A stretch of DNA of 43,323 nt, taken from the NCBI GenBank assembly GCA_020072765.1, contig JAIQGD010000050.1:1-43323 (forward strand). The letters are read 5' to 3'. This document shows, in pieces, positions 7,268 to 41,924 of the stretch. The notes beneath the pieces were generated by a model that saw only the letters and a list, made by a program, of their open reading frames with translations, had not been told where the DNA came from and did no database searches. Source of the stretch: Terriglobia bacterium (GTDB taxonomy: Bacteria > Acidobacteriota > Terriglobia > Acidiferrales > UBA7541). The first letter of the stretch is position 1. Each line of letters begins with the position of its first letter. The position numbers and the translations under genes were made by a program.

Positions 7268-7288
7268 TCTGTTGCCGTTGCCTAGCCG

Positions 7289-7458: not shown

Positions 7459-7474
7459 AGGCCTGAGCACGCAG

Positions 7475-7499
7475 GTGGCGCAGGCACTCCTGCCTGCGC
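7475..7499 (+). repeat. GTGGCACAG hairpin repeat, copy 2
   Basis: GTGGCGCAGGCACTCCTGC followed by CTGCGC. Both arms differ from copy 1 by paired changes that keep the stem (GCGCAGGC with GCCTGCGC), as expected if the hairpin matters. Confidence 0.75.
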
Positions 7500-7655: not shown

Positions 7656-7760
7656 CCCATCCTTCGCGCCGTCCGCGAAGGGTGGGGCTTTTGTCCGAAT
7701 CCGTTGATGAACAACGCCGTAGGGCGCCAGCGCGCCGCTCCACCCGTCTTCCGGCCTCGC

Positions 7761-12297: not shown

Positions 12298-12527
12298 TGA
12301 GACTCCTCATCATGGAGCACCGGGTAGCGGCGGGATACGCGGCGGCGCACAGTTGTGCGCGCACCTGGCCCACGTGGGGGAAGGCAAAGCCGTCTGGCTT
12401 GCTCCGCGGGCCGCTCAGGAAAGTCCTTCGATCGTGCGGGGCTTCTTTCCTCACCCGATGCGTTCCTCAGTCAAAGACTGGATTTCCGGTCCCGATCAGG
12501 CGGGACTCGGTGCTGGCTCCGCGGATC

Positions 12528-13625: not shown

Positions 13626-15481
13626 GGACGTTGCACTCCAGCGGCGGGCGCGAGCGGACGCGCCGGGCCCGGCAGCGCGACATTCTGCGCGGTGGACGGG
13701 GGCGGCAGGAAATGGCCGGCCTTCTTGTCATAGTACGCTTTGACGACGTCGCGGACGATGGGAGCGGCCGACGTGCTCCCCCAGCCTCCGGCCTGCACCA
13801 GCGCGGCCACCACGATCTCCGGATTGCGCCGCGGCGCGTAGCCGACGAACCATCCGTTTTCCTTCAACTTCTTACCCAGCTTATTCTGGAGCTCGAAACC
13901 TTCGACCTGAGCGGTGCCCGTCTTGCCGGAGAAGTCAACGTTCTGCAGTTTCACGAGGCCCGAAGTGGTGCCATCAGGCTCGTTGACGACTCCCCACATG
14001 CCGTCGGTGACTTGTTGGACGGTGTCGTCGGAAATCGGGAACGAGCCGGATTTCAATTCGGGGGCGTTTTTCAAAAGATGGGGTGGGATCAGCGTGCCGC
14101 CGCTGGCCACCGCCACGATCATGCGGGCGAGTTGCACGGGCGTGGTCATCACGGCGCCTTGCCCAATGGCCACCGAGATCGTTGATCCGGGATACCACTT
14201 GTGATGGTTGACGCGCTCCGACCATTCTTCGGAGGGGACCAATCCCGCCTGTTCGCTGGGCAAGTCGATCCCAGTGCGCTGGCCGAGTCCCAGGCCGCGG
14301 GCGTAGTAGGAAATGCGGTCGATGCCGAGGAGCTTGCCGACGTTGTAGAAGAAGACGTCGCAGGAGGCCACAATGCCTTTGTGGAGATTGACCACGCCGT
14401 GCGCGTGATCGCAGTGGAAGACGCGCCCGTAGAACACCGCCGAGCCCGGGCAATAGGCCGTGTAGTTGGGCGAGATGGCCTTCGATTCGAGCATGGCGGT
14501 GCTCATCACGACCTTGAAGACCGAACCCGGCGCCAACTGCGCCTGGATGGCGCGATTCAGCAGCGGGGTTTGCGGGTCGGTGTTCAGCGTTGTCCACTCG
14601 GGCTGCGGAATGCGAATCGCGAAATCGTTGGGGTCGAACGTCGGCCGGCTGACCATGGCCAGCACTTCGCCGGTGCGCGCATCCATGGCGACCAGCGCGC
14701 CTTCCTTGTTCGCGAAGTCCGCTTCCGCAATTTGTTGCAGATCCTCGTCGATGGTGAGCTGGATGGGCTTGCCGGGAATGGCCTCGACGTTGTCGAGCGT
14801 GCGGATGACCTTGCCCACGCTATTGACGACCACGCGGCGCATGCCGTCGGTGCCCACGATCTGGTCGTTATATTGCCGCTCCAGGCCCGCTTTGCCCACG
14901 ATGTCGCCGGGGCGGTAGCGGTCGGGATTCTTTTCCATTTCCTGCGGCGACACTTCGCCGACGTAGCCGATGGTATTGGCGAGCATCTGGCCGTGCGGGT
15001 AGCGCCGGCGCTGGACCATCATGAGTTCAAGCAGGGGAAGATCGGCGCGGTGCGATTCGACAAACGCGATGTCCGCTTCGGTAGCCGCCGGCTTGATCAC
15101 AATGGGCTGGAATTTCGGCTCGTTGCGCGCGGCTTCCAGTTGCTGGTGCAGATCTTCCTTGGAGATGGCGAGGCCCTCTTCAATTTGCGGAAGGCTTTTC
15201 TGCAGCGCCTTGGGATCGTCGCGCAGCAGGAGAATGCTGAAGGAAGGATAGCTATCCACCAGCACGCGGCCCTCGCGGTCGAGCATGGTGCCGCGCGGGG
15301 CGATGATGGGAATGTAGCGGATGCGGTTGCGTTCGGCGAGGTCGGCGTAATGCCCGGACTGCACGACTTGCAGCTTCCAGAAGCCGACGAGCAAAGACAC
15401 CACCACGACCACCGACACGTAGGAGAAGAGTGCCAATCGGCCCTGCGGAATTTTCTGGTCGCTAATGCCCCACGCTGCCAA
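13622..15481 (-). CDS. mrdA: Penicillin-binding protein 2, peptidoglycan D,D-transpeptidase
   Basis: Elongasome class B PBP of 619 residues. A single N-terminal membrane anchor (about 18-37) precedes the pedestal region with APRGTMLDREGRVL. The transpeptidase domain has the nucleophile in PGSVFK (Ser320, Lys323), the second motif SCD (373-375) and the third motif KTGTAQ (Lys520). The SxD form of the second motif is usual for PBP2. A Pro/Ala-rich tail of about 30 residues follows. It cross-links glycan strands made by RodA, with which it overlaps by four bases. Unlike the rest of the cluster it is separated from mreD by 445 bp. Confidence 0.95.
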   Translation of the reverse strand: MAAWGISDQKIPQGRLALFSYVSVVVVVSLLVGFWKLQVVQSGHYADLAERNRIRYIPIIAPRGTMLDREGRVLVDSYPSFSILLLRDDPKALQKSLPQIEEGLAISKEDLHQQLEAARNEPKFQPIVIKPAATEADIAFVESHRADLPLLELMMVQRRRYPHGQMLANTIGYVGEVSPQEMEKNPDRYRPGDIVGKAGLERQYNDQIVGTDGMRRVVVNSVGKVIRTLDNVEAIPGKPIQLTIDEDLQQIAEADFANKEGALVAMDARTGEVLAMVSRPTFDPNDFAIRIPQPEWTTLNTDPQTPLLNRAIQAQLAPGSVFKVVMSTAMLESKAISPNYTAYCPGSAVFYGRVFHCDHAHGVVNLHKGIVASCDVFFYNVGKLLGIDRISYYARGLGLGQRTGIDLPSEQAGLVPSEEWSERVNHHKWYPGSTISVAIGQGAVMTTPVQLARMIVAVASGGTLIPPHLLKNAPELKSGSFPISDDTVQQVTDGMWGVVNEPDGTTSGLVKLQNVDFSGKTGTAQVEGFELQNKLGKKLKENGWFVGYAPRRNPEIVVAALVQAGGWGSTSAAPIVRDVVKAYYDKKAGHFLPPPSTAQNVALPGPARPLAPAAGVQRP

Positions 15482-26055: not shown

Positions 26056-26496
26056 ATGGTCCGGCAAGCATCCTACGCCCGGCGGTTGGGGATCAACCTC
26101 GCCTCAAAGAAAGAGGAGGAGCTGTTCCGGTGGTTTCTGGCGTGTCTGTTGTTTGGCAAGCCGATCCAGACGGAGATCGCCGAGCAGGCGTACCGGCAGC
26201 TTGTGGCGGCGCGATTGACCACCCCGGAGGCCATTCTGCATGCCGGCTGGGACAGGCTGGTGTTCCTTTTGGACAAGGCGCACTACGTCCGGTACGATTT
26301 TTCGACGGCCACGAAGCTGCTGGAGGTTTGCGGGGACTTGAAGCACCGCTACGGGACACTGACCAACCTGCTGGCGCAGGCCGCGACCGCCTCCGCGCTT
26401 TCCCGGAAATTGCAGGAGTTCAAGCATATTGGACCCGTGACCGCGCGGATATTTTTGCGGGAAGTACGTCCGCTCTGGTATCGGAGGGCGCAATAA
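26056..26496 (+). CDS. Helix-hairpin-helix (endonuclease III-like) protein, possibly C-terminally truncated
   Basis: A protein of 146 residues from the ATG at 26056. Mostly alpha-helical, with LFRWFLACLLFGKPIQTEIA near the start (like the substrate-scanning helices of endonuclease III-type proteins) and an HhH motif LQEFKHIGPVTARIFLREVR near the end. HhH-GPD glycosylases continue after this motif with the catalytic Asp and often an Fe-S cluster; here a stop follows 8 residues later. Either this is a shorter non-catalytic family or the gene has lost its 3' part. Sequence downstream in another frame to 26591 shows nothing I can assign. The gene stands alone before the sigma factor. Confidence 0.55.
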   Translation: MVRQASYARRLGINLASKKEEELFRWFLACLLFGKPIQTEIAEQAYRQLVAARLTTPEAILHAGWDRLVFLLDKAHYVRYDFSTATKLLEVCGDLKHRYGTLTNLLAQAATASALSRKLQEFKHIGPVTARIFLREVRPLWYRRAQ

Positions 26497-26703
26497 GGTA
26501 CTATGTGGCCGGCAACTTTTTAGGCTGGCGGGCATCTAAGTTTAAGGAGCTTCTTTTAGGCACTCCGAAGACCCCGGCACCGGATAGCTAAGTCATTCTT
26601 CTGCAGCAAGATAGGCCGTCCATCGCAACTGTCCCTGACAGGCGTGAAACGAAGGAACCACCCGGCCCCAGGTGGGTCAGGTGCGCTCCGAATGAGGAAA
26701 TTT

Positions 26704-28281
26704 ATGTCGTCCATGATGAACAACGAACTTCATAACCGCGCCGGAGAATTTGAGCCTGGCGACGGAGCGCAGTTTCCGGTGATGGCCGGGGATGTGGATA
26801 GCGAGACGCTCGGGCACGCGCACGACGAGCACTCCGAAGAGCATGCGGGCGAGCATGCCGGTGAGCACGCGGAGGAGCATGCCGAGGAACTCGACCTGAC
26901 GCCGGGAGAGCCCACGCAGGCGAACCTGATGAGCACGTACCTGCGGGAAATGGGGGGCACGCGGCTGTTGACCCGGGAGGGCGAAGTGCGCCTGGCCCAG
27001 GGCATTGAGCGCGGGCAGGCGCGCGCGTTGAAGGCGCTTTCGCGTTCCCCGATCGTGTGGCAGGAACTCGCGGCCGCCGCCCAACAGTTGCGCCGTGGGG
27101 AACGCTCCATCGAGCAGATTGTGGATTGCGGCGAGGAGCCGCTCGCGCCCAAGCAGATCGAGGGCAAGACCGGCAAGCTTTTGAAGACGATTGCGGAGAT
27201 CGTGGCGCTGCACAAGCAGGTGGTGCGCGAGGCGCGGCTGGTTTCGCGTCTGGCGGAGTCGAATCAGGCGGCCGTGGTGCGCGCGCGCTACCGCGTGGCA
27301 CGCGCCGCGATCGGGATTTCGCGACTGGTTCGCTCCATCGAGTTTCATCCGGCGGAAAAAGCGCGCCTGACCTCGAAAGTCGGGGAAGCGCTGGCGAACG
27401 CCGTGGCGCTGGGAAAAGCAAAAGCAGCGGCCAAGCGCTCTGCGCGGAAGAGCCGTGGCGCGCGGAAACCGCTGGCGGCAACCGCCGGCGTGAGCGTCAA
27501 GGAGCTGCAGCGCACGCTGGAGATGATCCGCCGGGGCGAAGCGGAAACCGCGCATGCCAAGAAAGAGCTGACCGAGGCCAATCTGCGGCTGGTCGTGTCG
27601 ATTGCCAAGAAGTATCAGAACCGGGGACTGGACATTCTGGACCTCATTCAGGAGGGGAATCTCGGCCTGATGAAGGCCGTGGATCGGTTCGAATGGCGGC
27701 GGGGCTATAAGTTTTCGACCTACGCGACCTGGTGGATCTGGCAATCGGTGACGCGGGCGATTGCCGGACAGGCGCGCACCGTGCGGCTGCCCGTGCACAT
27801 GATCGAGACGGTTAACCGGCTGGCGCGCGCCAACCGCGAGCTGACCAAGGAATTGGGGCACCAGCCTTCGCCGGAAGAAGTGGCGAAGAAGCTGGGCGTG
27901 TCAGTGGACAAGGTGCGTTCGCTGATGGTGATCATGCAGGAACCGATGTCGCTGGACGCGCCGATTGGCGAGGACGAGGGCTCGCAACTGGGCGACCTGA
28001 TCGCCAACCCGAGTTCGCTTTCCCCGTCGGAAGCGCTGCTGCAATCCGATCTGCAGGAGCGAACGCGCGCAGCGTTGAAGATGCTGACGCCCCGCGAGGA
28101 ACGAGTGATCCGCATGCGCTTTGGCATGGAGGATGGCGTGGAGCACACGCTGTCGGAAGTGGGCGAGGCCTTTGGCCTGACGCGCGAGCGCATCCGGCAG
28201 ATCGAGGCGAAGACCATGCGCATCCTGCGGGAGTTGCCGCGCATGCGGGACCTGCACGACTATCTGCGCCGCGCGTCCTAA
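26704..28281 (+). CDS. RNA polymerase sigma-70 family factor, RpoD-like
   Basis: A protein of 525 residues from the ATG at 26704 (GAGGAAA upstream); ATG 26692 and GTG 26644 are alternatives. Order: a His/Glu-rich N-terminus (residues 38-62, repeated [11 protein letters not shown]) in place of region 1.1, region 1.2 ([20 protein letters not shown], about 76), a basic non-conserved linker, region 2 ([39 protein letters not shown]), region 3, and region 4.2 with [11 protein letters not shown]. Region 2.4 reads [13 protein letters not shown], with Trp346 where RpoD usually has Arg; the -10-reading Gln and Thr are kept. dnaG is not adjacent. It could be the primary sigma or a group 2 paralogue. 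Confidence 0.88.
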
Positions 28282-28665: not shown

Positions 28666-29712
28666 TTAAGCGGTGGCCTGTGATGGGCGCGTTTCTTGCT
28701 GGGCCGAGCATCCCACCTCCAGATACCGCTCGGCCCGGTGCCAGCGCGCCGGCGTATGGAACGCCGCGCAGAGATCCTTCATTTTCTCAACGATGCCGCG
28801 CTCCTGGAGTCCCTCGGCGCGGCACACCCGGCACGCGCGAATCAGCGTGGGATACAACCGCAAACCGCGGGGGATTCCTCCCGGCGTCTCCACGAGATAG
28901 ATAAACCCCTGGTCGTTCCGCTCGATGGGATCCACCGCATAGTCATCAACAAAGTCGCCTGCGCCATAAATGATCGGGCGGCCCTTGTAAAACTCGATTC
29001 CGCGAAAGACATGGCTGGAGTGGCCGAAGACGAGGCCGGCCCCCGCTTCGATCAGCGCGTGAGCGAATTCCACGTGCCCTGATTCCGGGAGATATCCCCA
29101 GTTCGATCCCCAATGAGCGGACACGATGAGTAGATCGCAGAGCTTCGTTTGCGCGCGCACGATGTCGAGCACGTTCTGCGCGCGCCGGTCGCCGAGGTCC
29201 GGCGGCGCGTAGAAAACGCCCGGCCGGCTGGCCGTGGCTTCCCAGGCAGGCTCGTTGTCGGTGAACGCCAGGAGACCCACCTTCTGGCCGCACACGTCCG
29301 CGGTGGCCAGCCGGGAAGCCTGCGCGAGATCCGCTCCCGCTCCGCTGTGTGCGATCCCCGCCCGGTCCAAAAGTTGCAGCATCTGCAGCAAAGCGTCCTC
29401 GCCATAGTCCAAGACGTGATTATTCGCCAGCGAGACGGCGTTGATGCGCGCCGCCTGGAGGACGGCGATGTTTTTCGCGGAGGAGCGGAACTGAAACACT
29501 TTGCCGGCGGCGGGCTTCCCGCGATCCGCGATGACGCACTCGAGATTGCACATGCGCCAGGATGCGCCGTGCAGAAGCGGCAAGGTGTCTCCCCACGGGT
29601 AATCGGGCGACGCGCTTTGCAGCACGTCGTCAACCAATCGTCCGAGCATGCAATCGCCCAGAAGCGCCAGCGTAGGGAATTCGCCGCGGGTTCCCGCTGA
29701 AGCGGCAGGCAC
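28666..29712 (-). CDS. CapA family metallophosphatase-like protein
   Basis: About 348 residues from a GTG at 29712. The fold is that of PF09587 (CapA, calcineurin-like): LLGDCMLGRLVDD near the start, NLECVIADRG, SLANNHVLDYGEDAL, LIVSAHWGSNWGYLPE, and FGHSSHVFRGIEFYKGRPI with GAGDFVDDY, which supply the usual Asp/His/Asn metal ligands. CapA is tied to poly-gamma-glutamate export, but most homologues have unknown roles and no capB/capC is nearby. No ribosome site precedes the GTG; an ideal AAGGAGT with correct spacing precedes an ATC at 29754 instead, directly on the rtcA stop. It is the last gene of the prs-rtcA-capA run. Confidence 0.85.
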   Translation of the reverse strand: MPAASAGTRGEFPTLALLGDCMLGRLVDDVLQSASPDYPWGDTLPLLHGASWRMCNLECVIADRGKPAAGKVFQFRSSAKNIAVLQAARINAVSLANNHVLDYGEDALLQMLQLLDRAGIAHSGAGADLAQASRLATADVCGQKVGLLAFTDNEPAWEATASRPGVFYAPPDLGDRRAQNVLDIVRAQTKLCDLLIVSAHWGSNWGYLPESGHVEFAHALIEAGAGLVFGHSSHVFRGIEFYKGRPIIYGAGDFVDDYAVDPIERNDQGFIYLVETPGGIPRGLRLYPTLIRACRVCRAEGLQERGIVEKMKDLCAAFHTPARWHRAERYLEVGCSAQQETRPSQATA

Positions 29713-29765
29713 CCGTTGCGGGCCTGCTGGTTGGTTTTCGGCGCCGTGCTCGATGGCTGTACTCC

Positions 29766-30839
29766 TTATCCGGGAGTTCCAATGCGGACGAAGCCGGGCT
29801 GGCCGATTTGTCCCTCGATCTGGATCGCGACGGGAAGAAACATTTGGACGATGGCGGCATTGGTGACCAAGTGCTGCGTCACGCGGGAGGTGCGCAACTC
29901 GGAGGCCCCCGAGGCCAGGGCCAAGGGCAGGATCAGCTGATCGGCGAGATGGGGATCGACCGCTCCGGCGGTACCCACAAAATCGAGGAGCGCGTCCGCG
30001 GCTTCGTCGGCGACGCGCTCGGCGGGTTTGCCGCGCGCTCCGAGGCCGCAAAAACATCCCTGCGAGCTCTCGAATTCCGCCAGAAGCAGGACAAAAGTTC
30101 CCCGCGACGGGGAGGGCAACTGCACCATTTCGATTTCGACCGGTTTCGACAACGTTTCCAGTCTGCGGAGCGCTTGGCGTTTTTGGCGCTGGGCCACTTC
30201 GATATCCAGCCCGGCGACGCCCGAGATGCCGCGGATTCTTTTCAGCGCCCCCCGATGGGTCAGGAGCAACGGAGCGAGCTTGCCAGCGGGCTCGACGACC
30301 GCGCGCACGCATCCGCCACCGCGGGGATAAAACCCTGCCGCATCCAACTCCAGGCGAATCTGGAAACCAATCCTGCGCATGTGGGGAAGCCAATGCCACT
30401 CGAGAAAATGAAAGCAGGGGCTCCAGGGAACGTGGGTTCCGCCGGTCACGCTCACGCGGGAGGATGCGCGGGCGAAGCTCAGGGGAGGCAGAAGCGTCTG
30501 GAGGACGAGCGAAGTGGAGCCGGCCGTGCCGATGTCGAAGTGGAATTCGCCGGGCCGGATGCCCGTGGGCTCAAAAACCAGATCTTGCGAGCCGAGCATC
30601 GCGCCCTGGACCCGCGCCATGCCGACCGCGCCGGCCGCTTCGACGGCTTTCAGGTGCTGGGGCATGAGGCCTGGCTTCGCGCGGTGGCGGCGGATGTTCT
30701 TCATCGTGAAGGAGCGGCGGGTCATCAGGGCCAGGGAAAGAGAAGTTCTCAGTACCTGCCCGCCCCCTTCGCCGAGCGAGCCGTCAATCGCGAGCATGGG
30801 CTCCGGTGGGTGAGAGATCATCGGTGATGAGGCGTCCAT
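29766..30839 (-). CDS. rtcA: RNA 3'-terminal phosphate cyclase
   Basis: Converts an RNA 3'-phosphate to a 2',3'-cyclic phosphate with ATP through an enzyme-AMP intermediate. It has 357 residues from 30839; an ATG at 30797 (MLAIDGSLGEGGGQ) starts right at the conserved N-terminus. Family marks: DGSLGEGGGQVLRTSLSLA, HRAKPGLMPQHLKAVEAA, RGGGCVRAVVEP-like strand (PRGGG), and the nucleophile His323 in SRVTQHLVTNAAIV. No rtcB ligase or rtcR activator is in the window, unlike the E. coli rtc operon. It lies 12 bp after the PRPP synthetase-like gene and its stop codon overlaps the ribosome site of the CapA-like gene. Confidence 0.93.
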   Translation of the reverse strand: MDASSPMISHPPEPMLAIDGSLGEGGGQVLRTSLSLALMTRRSFTMKNIRRHRAKPGLMPQHLKAVEAAGAVGMARVQGAMLGSQDLVFEPTGIRPGEFHFDIGTAGSTSLVLQTLLPPLSFARASSRVSVTGGTHVPWSPCFHFLEWHWLPHMRRIGFQIRLELDAAGFYPRGGGCVRAVVEPAGKLAPLLLTHRGALKRIRGISGVAGLDIEVAQRQKRQALRRLETLSKPVEIEMVQLPSPSRGTFVLLLAEFESSQGCFCGLGARGKPAERVADEAADALLDFVGTAGAVDPHLADQLILPLALASGASELRTSRVTQHLVTNAAIVQMFLPVAIQIEGQIGQPGFVRIGTPG

Positions 30840-30851
30840 TGTTCCGTGCCT

Positions 30852-31748
30852 CTAGCTTGTCATGGATGCGAGCCCTTCTTGCAATAGCGGGGCCACGGGG
30901 AGGATGGTGGTCTTGGCTGCGTCCACGCCGGCGGGCAGGGGCAGCGTGTCGGTGCAAAAGATGCGGCGCACGCCGAGCGACCATAATCTTTTCCACGAGG
31001 TCCCGGTAAACAGTCCGTGTGTAACCAGAATGTAGATTTCTTCCACGCGGGCGGCGAGCAGTTTTTCGCAAGCCGAGAGGAGCGTCTCGCCGGTATCGAG
31101 AATGTCGTCGAGGAGCACCACGCGAGGGCCTACTTTTCCCAGGGGTCCGTGGTGCGTGATTCCCGCCGGCGTGCGGCGCTTCTCGAAATAAGGGGTTTCC
31201 GCCACGGGCATCGCCGCCGCTTTCTTCACGGCTTGGCACCGGGGGATGGCTCCGTTGTCCGGAGCTACGAGCGTGGCGTCGGTGAGCCGCCATTCGCGGA
31301 TGGCGGCGGCGAAAAGTTCGGCGGTGGAAAGCGAGACGAGTGGGATCGGGAACAGTTCCTGGCCGCGTTCGCTGTGCGCGTCGACGGTGAGCACGTCGTC
31401 GAAGCCGGAAGCTTTCAGCAGCGATCCCAGCCAGGCGGTGGCCAGGCTTTCTCCCGGTTTGTTCTTGTCCTGCCGGCTGTAGGCCAGATAGGGCAGGAGG
31501 CCGGTCACTCGGCGGGCCCCGTCTTTTTTCAGCGTGTGGGCCAGCAACAGCAGGGAGAGCATCTGTGCGTCCGGCGGGGCCACCGAGCCCAGAATGCAGC
31601 AGGCTTCGCCGGATACAGGCGTTTGCACTCTGGCGCAGAGCTCCTGATTGGCAAAGCGCGTGAGGGTAAATTCCCCCGAGCGGATGCGCGGAAGCGCCGC
31701 GAGCGGCCCAGCCAGGTGATCGTAGTTGGGAAAGCTGAAGAGAATCAT
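30852..31748 (-). CDS. Ribose-phosphate pyrophosphokinase-like protein
   Basis: PRPP synthetase family, 298 residues, a little shorter than the usual bacterial 310-320. The C-terminal phosphoribosyl-binding loop RVVLLDDILDTGETLLSA is clear, and the N-terminal half has the family's FANQELCARV, LLPYLAYSRQDK and TVDAHSER (the ATP/Mg site). The catalytic flexible loop is EKRRTPAGITHHGPLG. These features place it nearer the divergent and archaeal-type enzymes than to housekeeping Prs, so it may be a second copy with a special role. It would make PRPP from ribose 5-phosphate and ATP. First gene of the prs-rtcA-capA run. Confidence 0.87.
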   Translation of the reverse strand: MILFSFPNYDHLAGPLAALPRIRSGEFTLTRFANQELCARVQTPVSGEACCILGSVAPPDAQMLSLLLLAHTLKKDGARRVTGLLPYLAYSRQDKNKPGESLATAWLGSLLKASGFDDVLTVDAHSERGQELFPIPLVSLSTAELFAAAIREWRLTDATLVAPDNGAIPRCQAVKKAAAMPVAETPYFEKRRTPAGITHHGPLGKVGPRVVLLDDILDTGETLLSACEKLLAARVEEIYILVTHGLFTGTSWKRLWSLGVRRIFCTDTLPLPAGVDAAKTTILPVAPLLQEGLASMTS

Positions 31749-32135
31749 GGTCGTTTGAGTACCGATCGAGCGCGATTAGGCGAGCCTGGGCGGCGAGGCC
31801 CCATTGGCCCGGCAGACGCCCCGAGCCGCCTTTGCAGGCTGCCATACGGCAGGGCCGGCGACCGTGATGTAGATCACCGAGAAGGATGGGGCCTGGCTGC
31901 CGCCTTTGGCCGGCGAAGTAAGCTTCGCCGTGGAACGCACCGCCAGGACGCTACGGCGCAGCAAAGCGGCGGCAAGCCGCCGCACTCCAAAGGGTGGGCG
32001 CTCGCGGTGGGATTTGCTCGTGTGGTGTCGTGGAAACAGCGCACAAATTTTACCGCCGCGCAGGGCGCAGCAAGCAGCGCCCCTACAGGAAGTTACGAGC
32101 CGGGCACTCCTAGCAGTTCTTTGCGGCACGCAAGA
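31749..32135. other. Non-coding interval with four hairpins
   Basis: Between the narK-type stop and the PRPP synthetase-like start. Hairpins: GGCGAAgtaagcTTCGCC (31912-31929), GCGGCGGCaaGCCGCCGC (31966-31983), GGGCGC...GCGCCC (32063-32082), and a weaker one at about 31835-31862. Frames here have no family match. One of the hairpins may end the nar transcript. Confidence 0.5.
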
Positions 32136-33428
32136 CTAAGCGGGGCCGCCTTCGTCGCGGGTGTACTTGAGCACCCAGGCCATGGACAGGGAGAACAGGG
32201 TCAGGAATACGAAGGTGACGAAACCGATGGCGTAGCCGGAGGTTCCCAGGTTGCGCACGGCCATGGCCATGATCGGCGGAATCACGAACCCGCCGAAGGC
32301 GCCCAGGCCCCCGACCCATCCGGCCGCGCCGCCGACGGCGTGCGGGACTGCTTTGGGCACGATCTTGAAGACGGCGGCGTTGCAAATGCCCATGCCGATG
32401 GCCATCAGGATTTCGCCCGGCACGGAAAGCTCAAACTGGTGCGAGCTGGTCATCACCAGCGCTCCGACCATGGCGATCAGCAGCGCCAGGATGGCCGTAT
32501 TTTCTCCGCCTTCCTGCAAGTGATCGGCGAGGATGCCGCCGCCCACGCGGACCAGCGAGGCGAGAATGGAGAAGGCCGCGGTGAGGAGTCCGGCCTTGAT
32601 GACACTCACGCCGAAGAAAGAGGTCCAGTAAATGGGCAGCCAGGCGGTCAAAGCCATGAAGCCGCCGAAGGTTGTGAAGTAGATCCACACCAGGGCCCAG
32701 GTTCTCCACACGCGCGCGGAGGCTCGCAGGCTCTCCTTGATCGTGCCGGCGGGCATGAGTTCTTGGCCTAGTTCACGGGCGCGCACGCGCGCGTCGGCCG
32801 GCGACATTCCCTGCTTTACGAGCTGGAAATAGGCGCTATTCCTGCCATAAATGGCGTAAAAAACCGCTCCGACGACCAGGATAGCGAGCCAGACAATATA
32901 GGAATTGGCCAGACCCAGCCGGACCAGCGCCAATGGCAGGAGCATGGAAAAAAGGCCGGGCGCGAGGTTGCCGAAGCCGGCGAAATACGCAAGCGCCTTC
33001 CCCTGTTGCCGCTGCGGGAACCAGTAGGAGACCTGGCTGATGCCGACCGAGAAAGTCGCGATGCCGCACCCGCACAGCATGCCCAGGAACATCAGCAAAG
33101 GATAGCTGGAGGCCGTGAGATGAGCGGGATACAAAAAGCGGGCCACGAGCGCCAGCCCCGTCATGCCCGCGACGGAGAGACTCAGGAGGGTGAGAAAGGG
33201 CTTGCGGCCGCCGGTGGTGTCCACCCAGGCGGAAAAGGGAATGCGCAGCAGCGAGCCCGAGAGGGATGGCACGGCTACCAGGAAACCCACGGCCATCGGG
33301 CCCAGTTCCATGACCTTTTGAAATCGCTGCGCGGACGGCCCGAACAGGGCGACGGCGGCAAATCCCACGAAGAACCCGAGCGTCGCGCTCCACAAGGCCT
33401 GTTTGGGTGAACCTTCAATCTGGCTCAT
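32136..33428 (-). CDS. narK: NarK-type nitrate/nitrite transporter (MFS)
   Basis: Major facilitator of 430 residues with about 12 hydrophobic helices. The nitrate/nitrite porter features are present: Arg in LLRIPFSAWVDTTGGRK, the nitrate signature-like GNLAPGLFSMLLPLAL and the second GGAAGWVGGLGAFGGFVIPP. The start has the strongest ribosome site in the cluster (AAGGAGG). It is the last gene of the nar unit, 116 bp after narI. It imports nitrate or exchanges nitrite; the direction cannot be read from sequence. Confidence 0.92.
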   Translation of the reverse strand: MSQIEGSPKQALWSATLGFFVGFAAVALFGPSAQRFQKVMELGPMAVGFLVAVPSLSGSLLRIPFSAWVDTTGGRKPFLTLLSLSVAGMTGLALVARFLYPAHLTASSYPLLMFLGMLCGCGIATFSVGISQVSYWFPQRQQGKALAYFAGFGNLAPGLFSMLLPLALVRLGLANSYIVWLAILVVGAVFYAIYGRNSAYFQLVKQGMSPADARVRARELGQELMPAGTIKESLRASARVWRTWALVWIYFTTFGGFMALTAWLPIYWTSFFGVSVIKAGLLTAAFSILASLVRVGGGILADHLQEGGENTAILALLIAMVGALVMTSSHQFELSVPGEILMAIGMGICNAAVFKIVPKAVPHAVGGAAGWVGGLGAFGGFVIPPIMAMAVRNLGTSGYAIGFVTFVFLTLFSLSMAWVLKYTRDEGGPA

Positions 33429-33544: not shown

Positions 33545-34237
33545 TCACGCGATCTCCCTGGGAGAGCGATACCAGCGCACCACCTGCGGACGTCTCCACA
33601 GATACGGGTTGGGGGTGACCAGGATGTGCACCAGGCGCGTGAAGGGAGTCACGCCGATCAGGACGTAAGCCATCACGATGTGCAGCTTTACCAGGACGGG
33701 CGCGGCGGCGACAAAGGCCAGCTCGGGATTGAAGCGCACCAGAGACCAGAGATAGGGCGTGAGGCCCGCGGCAAACCATGCCGAACCCCACGGATGAAAG
33801 ATCGCCACGCACAGCCCGGTGGTCACCTGCACCAGCAGCAGCAGCAGGACCATCCAATCCAGCGTGGTCGTTACTTCGCGGACCTTGGAATTGGTCAGGC
33901 GGCGCAGCATCGCGCCCAGCAAGCCAACCAGGGCCAGCAACGCAAAGGCCAAACCCGTGACCTCGAGAGCATGCAGCCGGAAGGGCTGGCTATCCCATCG
34001 CAGAATCTGCCGCGGCAGGAGAAACGCAACGATGTGCGCGGTCAGGACGGTCAGGATGCCGTAGTGAAACGGCACGAGCCCCCAGAAATGCCGCTTGTTC
34101 TCCAGAAACTGGGACGACAGGCTGGAGTAGGTGAACGGCGACTGGCGATATCTCCAGATCGTGCCCAGGAAAAAGATGAACATGGCCAGGTAAGGAAAAA
34201 CGATGAACAAGAGGGAATTGGTGAACGGCGTCGTCAT
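33545..34237 (-). CDS. narI: Respiratory nitrate reductase gamma subunit (cytochrome b)
   Basis: Membrane subunit of 230 residues with five hydrophobic helices, which takes electrons from quinol to NarH. It carries the His residues expected to bind two b hemes, in VPFHYGILTVLTAHIVAF and in KLHIVMAYVLIGVTPFTRLVHI. The length matches E. coli NarI (225). GAGGAAAC precedes the start and narJ ends 12 bp upstream. Confidence 0.93.
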   Translation of the reverse strand: MTTPFTNSLLFIVFPYLAMFIFFLGTIWRYRQSPFTYSSLSSQFLENKRHFWGLVPFHYGILTVLTAHIVAFLLPRQILRWDSQPFRLHALEVTGLAFALLALVGLLGAMLRRLTNSKVREVTTTLDWMVLLLLLVQVTTGLCVAIFHPWGSAWFAAGLTPYLWSLVRFNPELAFVAAAPVLVKLHIVMAYVLIGVTPFTRLVHILVTPNPYLWRRPQVVRWYRSPREIA

Positions 34238-34249
34238 AGGAGTTTCCTC

Positions 34250-34813
34250 TTATTGAAGCACGGGCAATTCCGGCCGCCGGACCGGCGCGTCCGCGGGCCG
34301 GTAGGGATAGCGACTCTTCAAAAGCACAAAGGTGGATTCGAGCAGTGCCGCATAAGCGTTGCGATTTTCCCGCCAGCCGGCCCGCATCTTGTCGAGGGCA
34401 TGCAGCACAAACCCTCCGGCAAACGCGGCGGCTTCGTCAGGCTCCAGCCTGGCCAGCAGCGCCAGGGCGTGGGTCAAATGGTCGGGCAACTCGCCTGATT
34501 CGGCCAGATCGTAACCGCGGAGCTGGTCGCGCATTTTCACGAGAAATTCGCCGCGCCCGTAGTCTTCTCCCCAGAGCTGCCAGCCGATTTCCAGGGTGCA
34601 CAGCGGGTTGAGGTCGAAGGTGCGGGTGAAGAGTTCCTGGAGTTCGTCGGTGGTCATGGGGCCGATGGCGGCGCAGAATTCCTCAAGCGCCGGGACGGCT
34701 TCAGGCTGTTCGCCGCGCATGGCGGCCAGACATTCGGCGGCGTCGGCGGCATAGGTGTCGCCGGGATAGGCGAACAACGGGGCCAGGCGTTCGTAAATGT
34801 GCGGAGTTTCCAT
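34250..34813 (-). CDS. narJ: Nitrate reductase molybdenum cofactor assembly chaperone
   Basis: Cytoplasmic chaperone of 187 residues that holds NarG until cofactor and Fe-S insertion are complete. TorD/NarJ features: ERLAPLFAYPGDTY at the N-terminus and ELQELFTRTFDLNPLCTLEIG, the conserved YTxTFD-like core. Start chosen at the ATG at 34813 which shares a base with the narH stop (TGATG); a longer frame upstream is the shadow of narH. Confidence 0.92.
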   Translation of the reverse strand: METPHIYERLAPLFAYPGDTYAADAAECLAAMRGEQPEAVPALEEFCAAIGPMTTDELQELFTRTFDLNPLCTLEIGWQLWGEDYGRGEFLVKMRDQLRGYDLAESGELPDHLTHALALLARLEPDEAAAFAGGFVLHALDKMRAGWRENRNAYAALLESTFVLLKSRYPYRPADAPVRRPELPVLQ

Positions 34814-36303
34814 CACAACCCCCGGCGCGGCCCGGAGACGAACCCGAAGCCGGCGGCCTGCTTGCGTTCGAGTGGATCTTCCAACATCTGAATGGCCTCT
34901 TCGCGGTGCATGGGCGGGATCACGAAGCGGTCGTCGAACGTGCACAGGGAAGTCAGGCGGTAGATGGCCTCGGCTTCCTCGGGCGAGCATTGCGCCGCCT
35001 GGAGCATGCGGTCGGCGGTGGCTTTGTCGACGTCGCCCACGGTCAAGGCGCGGCGGTGCCAGCGCACGGCCTTCTGCTTGCGCAGGGCGTAGCGCACGAA
35101 GGCGTCGTTCCCAGCGCCGAAGATGTTAGCCAGGAACTGCAGCGGGACGCGAGAGGCCTCGATATCGTGGAACAGCTCGTCGGAGGCGTTGTGGATGGTG
35201 CCGTTGGCCTGGTGGGACATCACCGGCGACATCGGCGGCACGTAGAAGAGCATGGGCATGGTGCGGTACTCGATGTGCGGCGGCAGGGCGATCTTCCAGA
35301 CCTTGACGAACTGGTAGACCGGCGAACGCTGGGCCGAGGCGATCACGGAATCGTGGATGCCGTTCTGGCGCGCGGCCGCGATCACCTCGGGGTCGTGCGG
35401 GTCCAGAATGAGCGAGCGCTGGGCCTCGATGAGTTCCGCCGCGGGACGCGAGGCGAGTTCCTCGATGCGCGAGGCGTCGTAGAGAAGCACGCCGAGGTAG
35501 CGGATGCGTCCCACGCAGGAATGGAAGCAGGCCGGGGCCTGTCCGGTCTCCACGCGCGGGAAGCACAGAATGCACTTCTCGGATTTTCCGGTGTTCCAGT
35601 TATAAAACATCTTCTTGTAGGGACACGCGGCCACGCACATGCGCCATCCGCGGCAGCGCTCCTGGTCCACCAGGACGATGCCGTCCTCGCCGCGCTTGTA
35701 GAGCGCGCCGGAAGGGCAGGAGGCCACGCAAGCCGGATTCAGGCAGTGGTTGCAGATGCGCGGGAAGTAGAACATCACCAGGCGCTCGACGGCGAACAAT
35801 TGGGCGCGCTGATCGGGAGTCAGTCCCTTCAGGTTGGGATCGCTTTCGGCGTAGACGGGTGATCCGCCGAGATCGTCGTCCCAGTTCGGCCCGGCTTCGA
35901 TCTGGATCAGCTCGCCGGTGACCATGGAGATAGGCCGGGCGGTGGGCTGGTCTTTTCCTTCGGGCGCGTTGAACAGGTGCTGGTAATCGTAGGTCCAGGG
36001 CTCGTAGTAATCGTCCATGGTGGGCATGCTGGGGTTGTGGTAGATGTTGAAAATCGTCTGCGCCTTGCCCGTGGAGCGCAGGCCGAGCTTGCCGTTCTTT
36101 ACTTCCCAGCCGCCGTGATACTTCTCCTGGTCCTCCCAATCGGTGGGGAAGCCGGTGCCGGGCTTGGTTTCGACGTTGTTCCACCACATGTATTCGGTGC
36201 CGCGGCGGTCGGTCCAGATGTTTTTGCAGGCGATGCTGCAGGTGTGGCAGCCGATGCACTTGTCCAGATGAAAGACCATCGAAACCTGTGAGCGAACGTC
36301 CAT
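34813..36303 (-). CDS. narH: Respiratory nitrate reductase beta subunit (Fe-S)
   Basis: Electron-transfer subunit of 496 residues. The four cluster motifs are present: CIGCHTCSIACKN (16-28), CNHCLNPACVASCP, CRGWRMCVAACPY with the Trp that makes this a [3Fe-4S] site, and KCILC plus CFHSC. A long C-terminal domain follows. The start has AAGGAGC. It is 16 bp after narG and coupled to narJ. Confidence 0.96.
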   Translation of the reverse strand: MDVRSQVSMVFHLDKCIGCHTCSIACKNIWTDRRGTEYMWWNNVETKPGTGFPTDWEDQEKYHGGWEVKNGKLGLRSTGKAQTIFNIYHNPSMPTMDDYYEPWTYDYQHLFNAPEGKDQPTARPISMVTGELIQIEAGPNWDDDLGGSPVYAESDPNLKGLTPDQRAQLFAVERLVMFYFPRICNHCLNPACVASCPSGALYKRGEDGIVLVDQERCRGWRMCVAACPYKKMFYNWNTGKSEKCILCFPRVETGQAPACFHSCVGRIRYLGVLLYDASRIEELASRPAAELIEAQRSLILDPHDPEVIAAARQNGIHDSVIASAQRSPVYQFVKVWKIALPPHIEYRTMPMLFYVPPMSPVMSHQANGTIHNASDELFHDIEASRVPLQFLANIFGAGNDAFVRYALRKQKAVRWHRRALTVGDVDKATADRMLQAAQCSPEEAEAIYRLTSLCTFDDRFVIPPMHREEAIQMLEDPLERKQAAGFGFVSGPRRGL

Positions 36304-36319
36304 GATCGCGCTCCTTATC

Positions 36320-39300
36320 TCACCACTTGAGTTCGGGCAGTTTGCGCACGAAGACGTGCGTGTCGCGGTTGCAGCCCGTCGGGCCCCAGTAGTTGAAGTG
36401 GTAGGTAAACTGGCCGTAGCCGCCGATCATCAGGTTGGGCTTCAGCCGCGTGCGGGTGAGCGAATTGTGGCCTCCGGCGCGGCGGTCCTTGCGCAGCGGC
36501 GAAGTGGGAACGGAAAGGGTGCGCTCCGGCGAGTGGTACTGGAAACAGATGCCGCGGGGGATGCGGGCGCTCACCGCGGCGCGCGTCACCACCACGCCGT
36601 TGTCGTTGTGCACCTCGACCCAGTCGTTGTCGGCGATGGCGATGTCGGCGGCGTCCTTGTCGTTCATCCACAGCGGCTCGACGCCGCGCGACAGCGTGGA
36701 CATGCGGTGGTTGTCGCCGTAGGTCGAGTGGATGTGCCACTTCCCGTGCGGCGTCAGGTAGTTGAGCATCATCGACGGGCCGGGATTTTCGCTCATGCGC
36801 AAGTCGGCAAACTCGGCCGGCTGCGGCTTGGGTTTGTAGGTCGGCAGGTGCTCGCCAAACTGGATGTAGGCGGGATGATCGAGATAGAAATGCTGGCGGC
36901 CGGTCAAGGTGCGCCAGGGCACCAGGGTTTCGACGTTGTAGGTGAACGGGGCGTAGGCGCGGCCGTTCTCGGTGAGGCCCGACCACATGGGGCTGTTGAT
37001 CAGGCGGTTGGGCCGCGCTTGCAGGTCTTTGTAGCTGATGAGCACGCCGCGATTGCGCTCGGCCAGTTGCACCAGCGGCAATCCGACCTTCGCCTCCATG
37101 TTGCGATAGGAGCGATAGGCCAGCTCGCCGTTGGTCACCGTGGCGAAGCGCAGGACGATGTTGCAGGCGTCCTCGTCGGCCTCCAGCGACGGGTAACGCT
37201 GCCCATTCCACGCCGCGGTGGGCAGGGTTTTCAGAGCTTCGTCGTAGACGTCGTCGCAGGCGTACTGCGTGCCGTGCGCGCCTAAGCCTTGGGAGCGGAC
37301 TTGCGGCCCGAAGGAGATGAACTGGTTGTAGAGATTGGCGTAGTCGCGGGCGACCATGCGCAGGCCCGGCATGGTTTTGCCCGGGATGGCTTCCACTTCG
37401 CCTTTCTTCCAGTCGCGCAGGTCGGGCTGGGCAATTTCGGCCGGTGTATCGTGCGCGAGCGGCGAAGCCACCAGATCCCAGACCGGGGCGGGGAAGTGCG
37501 GCGCCGCGAGTTCGGAAAACTTCTTGGCCAGCTCGCGGAAGACCTGCCAGTCGCTCTTGGATTCCCAGCACGGCGGCACCGCCGCGGCCAGAGGATGGAT
37601 GAACGAGTGCATGTCGGTGGAGTTGAGGTCCGCTTTTTCGTACCAGGTGGCCGCGGGCAGGACGATATCGGAATAGAGCGCCGAGGTGTCCATGCGGAAG
37701 TTGACGTCGACGACCAGGTCCATTTTTCCCTGCGGCGCGGGTTCCCGCCAGACCGCTTCCTTCACGGAACCGCTGCCCATGTCGGTGGCGATGGCGTTGT
37801 GGTGCGTGCCCAGGTAGTGCTTGAGGAAGTATTCGTGGCCCTTGGCGCTGGACAGGATGGCGTTTCCCCGCCAGATGAACCAGACGCGCGGCCAGCTTTC
37901 CGGGGCATCGGGGTCTTCCACGGCGAATTTGAGTTCGCCGTTCTTCAGTTTTTGCGTGGCGTAATCGGCCACCTGCTCCGACGTTTTCGCGCCGGACTCC
38001 TGGGCTTCGCGCGCCACGTCGAGCGGATTGCGGTTGAATTGCGGATAGAACGGCAGCCAGCCGCTGCGCACGGCGCGCACCTGCGTGTCCATGGTGTGGC
38101 CCGAAGCCAGGGAGCCCGGGCCCTGGCCGGCCGGAACGGTGTGGTAGTCGGTGAACTGCTTTTCGTAGCGCCACTGGTCGGAATGGACGTAATGCCAGCT
38201 GGGCGCATTTTGCAGGCGCACGGCGGGATTCCAGTCGCGCGCAAAGGCGATGGCCGACCACGACTCCATGGGCGCGAGTTTTTCCTGGCCCACGTAGTGC
38301 GCCAGCCCGCCGCCGTTGACGCCGACGCAGCCGCAGAACATCAGGGCGTGGATGGCGGCGCGGTACATCAGGTTGGCGTGGTACCAATGGTTGATGCCCG
38401 CGCCGATGATCACCGTGCATTTGCCGTGGGTATGTTCGGCCGTGGTTCCCCATTCGCGCGCGAAACGAATCACCATCTCGCGGCCCATGCCGGTGAATTT
38501 CTCCGACCAGGCGGGCGTATAAGGCGCGTCGGGATCGTCGTAATCCTTGGGATAGGCTCCCGGGAGGCCGCGGCGCACGCCGTACTGCGCCATCAGCAGG
38601 TCGTAGGCGGTGGCGACGACGGCCGTGCCGCCGTCGGCCGTTTGGATTTTTCGGATGGGGACGCCGCGGCACAGTGTTTTTCCCTCGGCGAAATCGTCGC
38701 ACTGGACCTGCACGACGCCGTCGTTGGCGGAAAGAAACGTCAGCGTGGGATCAATGGCCGAACCGTCGCTGCCGTCCTTCAGCACCAGATTCCATTTGCC
38801 CTTCTCGGCGCCCCAGCGGTGTCCGACGCTGCCCATGGGCATCTTGGGCCGCGCGTCGGCGGCATCCCACATCAGGAATTTCCAATCGCCGTTTTCGGTT
38901 CCCTGATAGGTGGCCAGGCGGTTGGCGCGCAGGAGCTGGCCGGGGCGGTAGGCATCGCCCTCCGGCTTCAATTCGACCAGGAAGGGCGCATCGGTGTATT
39001 TCTTGGTGTAGTCGAGGAAATAAGGAGTCTGCTTTTCGTGATGGAACTCCTGCAGCAGAACGTGATTGGTGGCCATCCACCAGGCGCCGTCCTGCCCGGC
39101 GTTGATCTGCACCCAGTCGTCCGCGTATTTGGAGACCTGGCTGAAGTCCGGGGAGAAGACCCACATCTTGCTGCCGTTGTGGCGGGCTTCGGCGGCGAAG
39201 TGGCAGTCGGGCGTGCGGGTCATGCTGATGTTGGAGCCCATGACGGCGAGGAGCTTCGCGTTGAACCAGTCGGCCGATTCGTTGACGTCGGTCTGCTCGC

Positions 39301-39964
39301 CCCAGGTTTCGGGAGAGGCGGAGGGCAGGTCGCAATACCAGTCGTAAAACGACAGCGAGACGCCGCCCATCAACTGGAGGAAGCGCGCGCCGGCGGCATA
39401 GCTGATCATGGACATCGCGGGGATGGGAGAAAATCCGGCCACGCGGTCCGGGCCATGCTTGCGCACCGTGTAGACGCAACTGGCGGCGATCAATTCGAGC
39501 ACCGTATCCCAGTCCGCGCGGCGGAATCCGCCCTTGCCCCGCGCCGTCTGCCAGCGCCGGCGGGCCTCGGGATTTTCAACCAGCGATTGCCAGGCGTCCA
39601 CCGGATCGCTGAAACCGGCGCGCGCCTTCTTCCACAAGTCCAGCAAGGCCCCGCGCATGTAGGGATACTTCACGCGGAGCGGGCTGTAGAGGTACCAGGA
39701 AAAGGAAATTCCCCGCTGGCAACCGCGGGGCTCGTAGGGCGGCAAGCCCGCCTCGAGCGAGGGGTAATCCAGGCCCTGCATTTCCCAGGTGACGATTCCG
39801 TCCTTGACGTAAATCTGCCAAGTGCAGCCGCCCGTGCAATTGACGCCGTGGGTGCTGCGAACCACTTTGTCGTGCTGCCAGCGGTTCCGGTAAAACTCCT
39901 CCCAGCTGCGCAACCGCGGATCGTGTTCGTCCTTGATCCAGCTGACGCCATTCTTGGGTTTCAT
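36320..39964 (-). CDS. narG: Respiratory nitrate reductase alpha subunit (molybdopterin)
   Basis: Catalytic subunit of 1214 residues, reducing nitrate to nitrite at Mo-bisMGD on the cytoplasmic side. The FS0 cluster ligands are His39, Cys43, Cys47 and Cys82 ([18 protein letters not shown]), the His form typical of Nar enzymes. The Mo-ligand Asp212 lies in [20 protein letters not shown]. There is no Tat signal, in line with a cytoplasm-facing enzyme. Sequence alone does not fully exclude nitrite oxidation, but the presence of narI and narJ and the lack of a signal favour nitrate respiration. Its ATG overlaps the cytochrome stop by four bases. Confidence 0.97.
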
Positions 39965-40806
39965 GCCGCACCTCGTTGCGCTGCTTTGAGAACCGTTCGC
40001 CGAACCGAGCCGATCCGGCTGCGCCAGATCCAGCCCATCAGAACCAGCCCCAAAGCCGCGCCCAGCACACCGCCGCTCAGGAAAATTGGTATTTCGGCGG
40101 TGGCCGCGGCGGGGTGCGATCGCTGGGAGGCATCTTCAAACAGGGAGAGAAGGGAAAGGATTTCGTCCGGCTGCAGCGTGTGCTGGTGAAATACGGACTG
40201 CATGACGGGCGTGGGCGGAGCGGTCAGCCAGGCCCCGGCGCCCTGGCGTCCGCCGAGGCGTTGGTAGACCAGGGTGAGATCCGGACCCAAACGTCCGCCG
40301 GCCAGGCCGGTCATCGTGCCGAGCGTATGGCAGGAAATGCAGGCCGGTCCTCCCTGGCTCAATGGACGAGTGCCCTGGAAAAGTTCCGTGCCGGCGGCGA
40401 GATCTTCGGAGGTGAAGAGGCGCTCGGCCACGCTCGGAGCTGCGGCTGGAGGTGGCGCCGCGCCGCCCTGGGCATCAATGTAATTGAGCAGCGCCTCGGC
40501 CAGGGCCGGTGTGAGGCCGGGAACCGCGGGCATGGCGATGCCGTTGGCCTCCCGTTGCAGTTGCAAGGCGTAGGGATCGCGCTTGTGCAGGACCGCCGGC
40601 GGGTCTTCCATGAATTCTTCCAGCCAGGCGCGATCTTTTCGCTTGGTGACATCTTTGAGGTCGGGCCCGACGCGGCGGCCGCCGCCAATGGTGTGGCACG
40701 CCGAGCAGTTTTGCTGGAAAAAGTTGCCAGGCTGCTGCGCGGTGGTGCAGAATGGAGCCGCGCACACGAGGAAGAAGGCCATCGGGAAGAATCGGGATTT
40801 CATCAC
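39961..40806 (-). CDS. Diheme c-type cytochrome of the nar unit
   Basis: Exported protein of 281 residues. A signal peptide ([20 protein letters not shown]) is followed by two c-type heme domains: Cys34-Cys37-His38 (CSACH) and Cys156-Cys159-His160 (CISCH), with Met92 (IAMPAVPG) and Met202 (PVMQSV) as candidate sixth ligands. A single C-terminal helix (about 242-261) with a basic end anchors it to the membrane. It sits between the regulator and narG, overlapping both by four bases, a place comparable to narC in Thermus. It could pass electrons to NarI or drain them to other periplasmic carriers. Confidence 0.9.
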
Positions 40807-41297
40807 AGGCGCCTCCCACGTGGCGTAATTTCCCGCTTGGAGGAAGACCGGCTTTTCTTGTGCGCCGCTCTTCCGGGTTTGCCTGAGCCGACCGGGGCGA
40901 CGGCAATCAGATCGGCAAGCGTGGTGTTTTCCATCAGCTCACGAATGGACGCCTGAAGCGGCGCCCAGTCTCGATGCAGGGGGCAGGGAGTGTCGATGGG
41001 ACAACTGGCGAGACCAAAAACGCACCCCTCGGAAATCGCCGGCCCTTCCGCGGCGCGCACCAGTGCCGCCAGTGTGATCGCGCGTGGCGCGTGCCCCAGC
41101 TCCACTCCTTTGCCCGGACCGCGGAACGACCGCACCAATCCGGCGCGGCTGAGCCGCTGGAAAATCTTCGCCAGATACGCCTCGGGCACGCCCGCGCGGG
41201 CGGCCACTTCGCGGACGGGAGACAGTTTTCCGGGGGATTGCTGGGCGAGGAAGATGGTGGCGCGGATGGCGATCTCGGAAGCGTGCTGGAACAGCAT
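40803..41297 (-). CDS. Rrf2 family regulator leading the nar unit (NsrR-like)
   Basis: Fe-S type winged-helix regulator of 164 residues. HTH: LSPVREVAARAGVPEAYLAK with recognition helix IFQRLSRAGLV, wing RSFRGPGKGVELG. Three Cys at 92, 99 and 105 in GCVFGLASC and TPCPLHRDW are probable cluster ligands, as in NsrR and IscR, though the first gap (six residues) is one longer than in IscR. The tail is Lys/Arg/Ser-rich. It is the first gene, has GGGAG before the start, and overlaps the cytochrome gene by four bases. NO- or redox-responsive autorepression of the whole operon is inferred. Confidence 0.88.
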   Translation of the reverse strand: MLFQHASEIAIRATIFLAQQSPGKLSPVREVAARAGVPEAYLAKIFQRLSRAGLVRSFRGPGKGVELGHAPRAITLAALVRAAEGPAISEGCVFGLASCPIDTPCPLHRDWAPLQASIRELMENTTLADLIAVAPVGSGKPGRAAHKKSRSSSKREITPRGRRL

Positions 41298-41313
41298 TAC
41301 ATCTCCCTTCCGG

Positions 41314-41352
41314 AATATAAGACTGTTTAATCCTGTATTAGGAATTTGTCAA
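41314..41352 (-). promoter_or_regulatory. nar promoter with overlapping imperfect palindrome
   Basis: On the minus strand a consensus -35 TTGACA (complement of 41347-41352) is followed 17 bp later by TAAACA (41324-41329). The stretch 41314-41339 is a 26-bp imperfect palindrome beginning AATATAAGA and ending TCCTGTATT, with 8 of 13 arm positions symmetric. It covers the -10, where an Rrf2 repressor would act. Confidence 0.55.
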
Positions 41353-41432
41353 GCAGATTTTTGGGCGGGCCGGCGCCGAGTAGGGAGATTCGGTCCGTAT
41401 TTACAGGCACATTCGCAGGTTGCGGGGGGCGG

Positions 41433-41462
41433 TTGACAATAGAGGAATAAGGGAGCTACATT
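41433..41462 (+). promoter_or_regulatory. Promoter of the second rrf2 gene
   Basis: TTGACA at 41433-41438, 18-bp spacer, TACATT at 41457-41462. The ATG at 41469 is only six bases past the -10, so the transcript may begin at the start codon. Confidence 0.5.
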
Positions 41463-41468
41463 TCACCT

Positions 41469-41924
41469 ATGATCTTCTCACGGCCGTGTGAGTACGCCAT
41501 CCGCGCCATGACCCATCTGGCCGACTCCCCGGAAGGAGTTGCCCGCGCGCAAGAGATTGCCGAGGCGGAAGATATCCCCCTGCCCATTCTGAGCAAGGTC
41601 TTGCAGGACCTGGCGCGCGACGGCCTTCTGAAATCCCGGCGCGGACCCGGCGGCGGGTTTCGCCTAGCCCGCGGGCCGGAGCACATCAGCCTGCGCGACG
41701 TGGTCGCGGCCATCGATGGGACCGAGGATTTCTACCGCTGCGTCGCGGGGCTGGCCGGATGCTCGGAGGAAGCGCCGTGTCCGCTGCACGATATGTGGAA
41801 GCACTTCCGGGAAAACCTCATGGTGTCGCTGGAAACCTCCACGCTGGATAGCATGGCCAAGGTGGTCAAGAAGAAGAAGCAGGTGGCGGCGAAGAAAGGG
41901 CCGCGCCTTTCCGGCGTCGTTTAG
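41469..41924 (+). CDS. Second Rrf2 family regulator
   Basis: A protein of 151 residues, divergent from the nar unit. Winged helix with EIAEAEDIPLPILSKVLQDL and wing SRRGPGGGFRLAR. Cys91, Cys98 and Cys104 (RCVAGLAGC, APCPLHDMW) have the same spacing as in its neighbour, so the two regulators probably bind the same kind of cluster. It ends in a Lys-rich tail. No ribosome site lies at the normal distance (GGGAG is 13 bp away). Its stop overlaps the stop of the convergent CMD gene by four bases. Confidence 0.9.
   Translation: MIFSRPCEYAIRAMTHLADSPEGVARAQEIAEAEDIPLPILSKVLQDLARDGLLKSRRGPGGGFRLARGPEHISLRDVVAAIDGTEDFYRCVAGLAGCSEEAPCPLHDMWKHFRENLMVSLETSTLDSMAKVVKKKKQVAAKKGPRLSGVV

Follow-up and report, generated by a model that had tools for sequence, protein, structure and literature searches.

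What could bring an RNA 3'-phosphate cyclase (RtcA), a PRPP synthetase-like protein and a CapA-like protein together in one compact run of genes? The question is raised by a locus within the window (the whole 43,323-nt stretch of DNA analysed here, contig C91 of a 3.78-Mb assembly of a Terriglobia bacterium). The original prediction was that these genes represent an unrecognised RNA-end or nucleotide pathway, and the proteins, their arrangement, their relatives in other genomes and their upstream sequences are considered here in that light.

Organization of the locus

All three genes are encoded in tandem by the minus strand (nt 31748–28666), in the order prs-like, rtcA, capA-like (Table 1). 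The first two are separated by 12 bp (nt 30840–30851), and the TAA stop codon of rtcA runs directly into GGAG (TAAGGAGTACAGCC; TAAGGAG), so that the ribosome site of the third gene overlaps the rtcA stop. The spacing and the position of the ribosome site were the grounds on which a single unit had been proposed, and both are confirmed by the coordinates; from this layout the genes are predicted to be one operon. In the related genome G001, capA begins with an ATG that overlaps the stop codon of rtcA, in support of translational coupling. No ATG follows the rtcA stop in the window. An ATC at nt 29757 has good Shine-Dalgarno spacing (TAAGGAG-8 nt-ATC) and is the apparent start of the capA-like gene, either as a rare start codon or as a sequence error for ATG; the alternative is a GTG at nt 29712. 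A 577-aa capA reading frame reaching nt 30399 was rejected as an artefact of the open frame.

Table 1. Features of the window
Feature	Position (nt)	Strand	Description
prs-like	30852–31748	-	298 aa; divergent paralogue of PRPP synthetase (ribose-phosphate pyrophosphokinase)
rtcA	29766–30839	-	357 aa; TIGR03399 and full-length alignment to solved RtcA
capA-like	28666–29757 (or start 29712)	-	putatively cytosolic PGA_cap protein, metallophosphoesterase fold
orf26	26056–26493	+	conserved, 146 aa, family not recognised; convergent with capA
narK-family nitrate/nitrite transporter	32136–33428	-	upstream neighbour, separate unit, 388-bp gap
narG-narH-narJ-narI	33545–39964	-	respiratory nitrate reductase operon, by family models
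CRP/FNR-type palindrome GGTGATCTACATCACG	31861–31880		narK–prs intergenic gap, ~129 bp upstream of prs start

Upstream of the trio are the narK-family gene, a c-type cytochrome gene and narGHJI. The narK-family product scored above the cut-off of PF07690 and, at 165.7 bits, under that of TIGR00886 (311.7); NarJ was above the Pfam cut-off and below the NCBIfam cut-off. Two divergent Rrf2-family regulator genes (nt 40806–41921) lie beside the cytochrome c and narGHJI genes. On the other side, a gene for a 545-aa RpoD-like sigma factor (nt 26644–28281) separates capA from orf26, the product of which gave no Pfam match. Relatives of orf26 directly adjoin capA in genomes G001, G022 and G044 (75%, 82% and 73% identity, respectively).

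The encoded proteins

The prs-like product scored 195 bits against TIGR01251 (cut-off 113). It contains the ATP, ribose 5-phosphate and flexible-loop residues of PRPP synthetases, with H125, K190, R192, D214, D215 and T222 among the residues invariant in 15 PRS sequences (canonical and PRK07199-like), and on these features it is assigned as a predicted PRPP synthetase. Against the PRK07199 subfamily it reached 158 bits, below the NCBIfam threshold of 322. The enzyme had been described as divergent, and it is only 29% identical to the second, ordinary PRS of the same genome (contig C125). Clusters of beta-CASP, thymidine phosphorylase and PRK07199 PRS genes on alphaproteobacterial plasmids are comparable in that a divergent PRS adjoins genes for nucleotide salvage and for a beta-CASP protein, but their PRS are 31–34% identical to that of the window and neither rtcA nor capA is found there.

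The rtcA product scored 370 bits against TIGR03399 (cut-off 250) and aligns over its full length with the solved RtcA of Escherichia coli, including the nucleophile histidine (QHLVTN versus CHLLTN). The locus shares with the E. coli-type rtcR-rtcBA operon a cyclase with an intact catalytic histidine and the presence of RtcB in the genome, but differs in that rtcB and rtcR are not adjacent, the RtcA is of another group, and no convincing sigma-54 site lies upstream. As had been noted originally, neither partner was recognised beside the trio: RtcB had no match within the window, and no RtcR was evident among the neighbouring genes, where no RtcR profile was used. The weight previously placed on the absence of RtcB is not supported, however, as the sole RtcB of the genome is encoded on another contig (G000:C132:6754-8124), which rules out loss of the RNA ligase, and in G022 the rtcB gene is found ~4–6 kb from capA-rtcA. 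RtcA is uncommon among the relatives (7/101). The window RtcA is 61–70% identical to the copies of G001, G022, G030 and G056, and 43% identical to those of rtcRBA loci. Two members of the window's own family, G058 and G048, carry canonical rtcR-rtcB-rtcA loci with a more distant RtcA (assigned by eye from the protein sequences, with RtcB confirmed by search).

The capA-like product belongs to the PGA_cap/CapA family (PF09587, 252.8 bits, 4.6e-75, cut-off 27) and has the metallophosphoesterase fold. Its best match in both fold and sequence was the lasso-peptide epimerase MslH, itself a PGA_cap protein, which was the top structural match to a model of moderate quality (pLDDT 64). The two positions that carry mutations in the MslH structures, D11 and H295, have conserved counterparts in the window protein. 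MslH differs in its low identity (~21%), its greater length (440 aa, with extra segments) and its lack of the GDFxDDY motif, which is common to the window protein and its subfamily; no lasso-peptide genes were recognised at the window locus. After MslH, the fold matches included 5'-nucleotidases and phosphodiesterases. A role in capsule (poly-gamma-glutamate) synthesis was rejected for want of capsule partner genes: no capB/capC-type genes were recognised near the capA-like gene. No N-terminal hydrophobic stretch is visible ahead of the PGA_cap domain. Catalytic residues are retained in all three proteins of the trio, all of which are argued to be active.

Recurrence in other genomes

The named relatives matched via the window prs were mostly metagenome-assembled genomes of Bryobacterales/Acidobacteria. 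The original prediction had proposed a survey of co-occurrence, with confinement to a single contig counting against it. The linkage does recur in other genomes, while the exact trio was found in the window's genome only, pairs or looser forms being seen elsewhere. Members of the window's CapA subfamily are encoded by 11/399 genomes of the class, 4/396 of the phylum and 2/380 of the phylum of the Saccharibacterium. Eight of the 399 class genomes carry the prs and 11 the capA, with four sharing both against 0.22 expected (Fisher P=2e-5); rtcA and capA occur together in 4/61 genomes of the family (P=0.002); and in 5 of 14 genomes capA has RtcB no more than 10 kb away, despite there being only 1–2 RtcB copies per genome (binomial ~4e-8), all three values being based on few genomes and ignoring shared ancestry.

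A window-type rtcA directly adjoins capA in G001 and G022, an arrangement common to three genomes of two genera when the window is included. In G022, a prs remnant lies beside rtcA, and genes for a hibernation-factor fusion, a class II ribonucleotide reductase (RNR; NrdJ), archease and RtcB come next, the whole taking up no more than 9 kb. The remnant spans 57 codons of the C-terminal part of prs (L011, nt 2526–2693), and the full-length prs of this genome is on another contig, adjoining a second hibernation-factor fusion, a situation that points to gene relocation or replacement. Fusions of an S30AE hibernation-factor (HPF) domain to a cold-shock domain (CSD) are widespread in these Acidobacteria (e.g. 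L052, nt 7625–8386; L011, nt 2716–3378).

Other relatives present variations on the same theme. G765 has prs-capA convergent with archease-RtcB, with NrdJ divergent; G656 has prs-capA-HPF/CSD followed by a phosphoribosyltransferase (PRT) gene; and in G604, RtcB and, further along, archease precede a convergent PRT-capA, with Hsp20 and HPF/CSD present. G133, a member of the Saccharibacteria (CPR), carries PRT-prs-hydrolase-capA convergent with rtcB, and G328 has hydrolase-capA. The G044 locus comprises capA, PRT, hydrolase, BON and USP genes with RtcB 16 kb away, and in G030 a CBS protein and RtcB are encoded ~8 kb off. The capA loci of G052 and G1003 have no core partners, although a nitroreductase and a USP are nearby in the former. 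A second CapA type (37% identical) occurs near prs in several Acidobacteria, and in G932 (L086) the order CBS-rtcA-prs-NrdJ, with an RtcA of 36% identity and this second capA further along, brings the same three functions together independently. A beta-CASP ribonuclease-like gene adjoins capA in G023 and G122. The best model for one beta-CASP protein beside capA (L070, nt 6998–8392) was the type VII CRISPR Cas14, at 373 of the 800 bits needed, and it is more likely to be a general beta-CASP RNase.

Matches on haloarchaeal, Streptomyces and Tsukamurella plasmids were mostly lone family members without the gene set. The exception is a Haloarcula pelagica plasmid, where the best CapA match has Hsp20, the same type of hydrolase and RtcB within 6 kb. 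This RtcB is in two overlapping pieces (L046, nt 12415–13843), is absent from the gene table, and is likely a pseudogene.

Across these genomes, the recurring neighbours of the trio genes are RtcB/archease, the hibernation-factor/cold-shock fusion, PRT, a dienelactone-type hydrolase, class II RNR, Hsp20, CBS and USP proteins, and on this recurrence a lone chance cluster was rejected. In the window's own genome the set is scattered: contig C62 carries consecutive genes for the hibernation-factor/cold-shock fusion, PRT and the dienelactone-type hydrolase, with USPs after them, and neither this group nor RtcB is on the contig of the trio.

A putative CRP/FNR-type operator

Five motif types were tried, of which the CRP-type palindrome alone was conspicuous, and exact matches to GTGA-N6-TCAC within 300 bp upstream were counted for 30 units. 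Eight units had one, compared with a mean of 0.08 and a maximum of 1 in dinucleotide shuffles, and random 300-bp stretches from the same loci reached eight in 0/5000 draws; the motif class was picked after looking at the data, and the excess is nonetheless large. The eight are the window prs, the RNR and archease-rtcB units of both G022 and G765, the prs and HPF-PRT units of G656, and the PRT unit of G001. The palindrome is missing upstream of the other 22, those of G932 and G1017 among them. In the window's genome it was found neither upstream of RtcB on C132 nor in the 297 bp of sequence present upstream of HPF on C62. DosR boxes, sigma-54 sites and NarL boxes showed no convincing enrichment, the DosR box in comparison with shuffles. 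A share of the units, including that of the window, thus carries a putative CRP/FNR-type operator.

Relation to the DosR regulon and alternative readings

The DosR regulon of Mycobacterium tuberculosis includes RtcB (Rv2631), a putative phosphoribosyltransferase (Rv0571c), a class II B12-dependent RNR (Rv0570, nrdZ) and Rv0574c, together with the hibernation factor RafH (Rv0079), HspX, the CBS protein Hrp1, USPs, nitroreductases and narK2/narX (PMC3095998, PMC4090907, PMC5309233). In these reports Rv0574c figures as a synthase-like protein with an effect on poly-alpha-L-glutamine content, and environmental bacteria are stated to share conserved DosR genes, possibly by horizontal transfer (PMC5309233). 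RtcA and a second PRPP synthetase, present here, are absent from the published lists (PMC3095998, PMC4090907, PMC5309233). The trio and the loci of its relatives share with the regulon RtcB, PRT, class II RNR, a hibernation factor, Hsp20, CBS, USP, nitroreductase and narK, so that as a set across loci the DosR-type repertoire is present; the window's own genome contributes RtcB, HPF, PRT, hydrolase, USP and narK. Rv0574c is probably a CapA/PGA_cap relative, a view backed by its description as synthase-like, and would then be the counterpart of the window CapA. The two sets also differ in their operators, the trio-type units having the CRP/FNR-type in place of the DosR box.

Because the gene repertoire matches the published DosR regulon, we read the window locus as an acidobacterial low-oxygen/dormancy operon, and give a probability of roughly 60% to the trio being one operon of such a gene set, here extended by RtcA and a second PRPP synthetase. 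Counting against this reading are the restriction of the exact trio to one genome, the scatter of the units in the window's genome, the 22 units that lack the palindrome and the two capA loci devoid of core partners. The proposal of an unrecognised pathway gives way, on this evidence, to a dormancy/hypoxia set of a published kind, while the link between RNA-end chemistry and nucleotide metabolism is supported.

A dedicated RNA-end pathway along the lines first proposed, in which RtcA, the PRS-like protein and CapA act in sequence on RNA ends or a nucleotide derived from them and CapA serves as the phosphoesterase for 2',3'-cyclic or phosphoribosyl products, would fit the operon structure, the independent rtcA-prs adjacency of G932 and a CapA fold shared with 5'-nucleotidases and phosphodiesterases (after MslH). 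We regard it as unlikely, since the partners are interchangeable, which a pathway of three obligatory steps would not allow: prs-capA occurs without rtcA in G765, G656 and G133, capA-rtcA occurs without prs in G001, and G133 and G134 encode the prs and have no detectable RtcA. Still less probable is that a canonical rtc RNA-repair locus was stripped of rtcB and rtcR and gained two unrelated genes by chance. Canonical loci do exist in the same family and the exact trio is rare, but the window RtcA is of a different group, capA-rtcA is conserved between genera (with the prs remnant in G022), and the partners recur independently. That the trio consists of nitrate-respiration auxiliaries, co-regulated with narK-narGHJI merely through position, is just as improbable, for although these genes are directly upstream and narK2 and narX belong to the DosR regulon, no nar genes were recognised beside the relatives' capA, prs or rtcA loci examined.

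For the low-oxygen/dormancy operon, the linkage and the CRP/FNR-type sites are observed, while the physiology that follows is inferred. When oxygen runs out or growth stops, the gene set and the nar genes would be turned on by a regulator of the CRP/FNR family. RtcA would convert RNA 3'-phosphates to 2',3'-cyclic ends, allowing RtcB/archease to reseal broken tRNA or other RNA, while the hibernation factor would protect ribosomes. PRPP from the second PRPP synthetase would enable PRT to recapture the bases of degraded RNA. The CapA-like protein may be a cytosolic metal-dependent hydrolase acting on a small metabolite of the pathway; its substrate, at this stage a guess, is probably phosphorylated. 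More tentatively, and with the odds against it, the cytosolic GDFxDDY branch of CapA might be a dedicated enzyme of a dormancy RNA-repair/nucleotide-salvage module common to Acidobacteria, candidate-phyla bacteria and haloarchaea, hydrolysing a phosphoribosyl or RNA-end product of the RtcA/RtcB and PRPP synthetase steps, which would also make sense of the otherwise puzzling gene labelled 'capsule-like' in the dormancy regulon of mycobacteria.

Searches of the literature on RtcA with CapA and PRS, or on archease/RtcB with phosphoribosyltransferase, found no description of such a cluster. The dormancy gene set is of a known kind; the combination of RtcA, PRPP synthetase and CapA, its spread in Acidobacteria and CPR, and the partly shared CRP/FNR-type operator had no counterpart in the papers searched. 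RtcB and the putatively CapA-like protein of the mycobacterial dormancy regulon had no settled role. In distant bacteria, cognate genes are now seen tied to RtcA, PRPP synthetase, a hibernation factor and class II RNR, in part with an operator in common, and this suggests that a programme of RNA repair and nucleotide recycling is conserved for non-growing cells. The Acidobacteria are harmless, potentially culturable hosts in which such a programme could be tested. They also offer a first testable setting, and a few candidate substrates, for a family of hydrolases mostly annotated as 'capsule-like' proteins of capsule synthesis.
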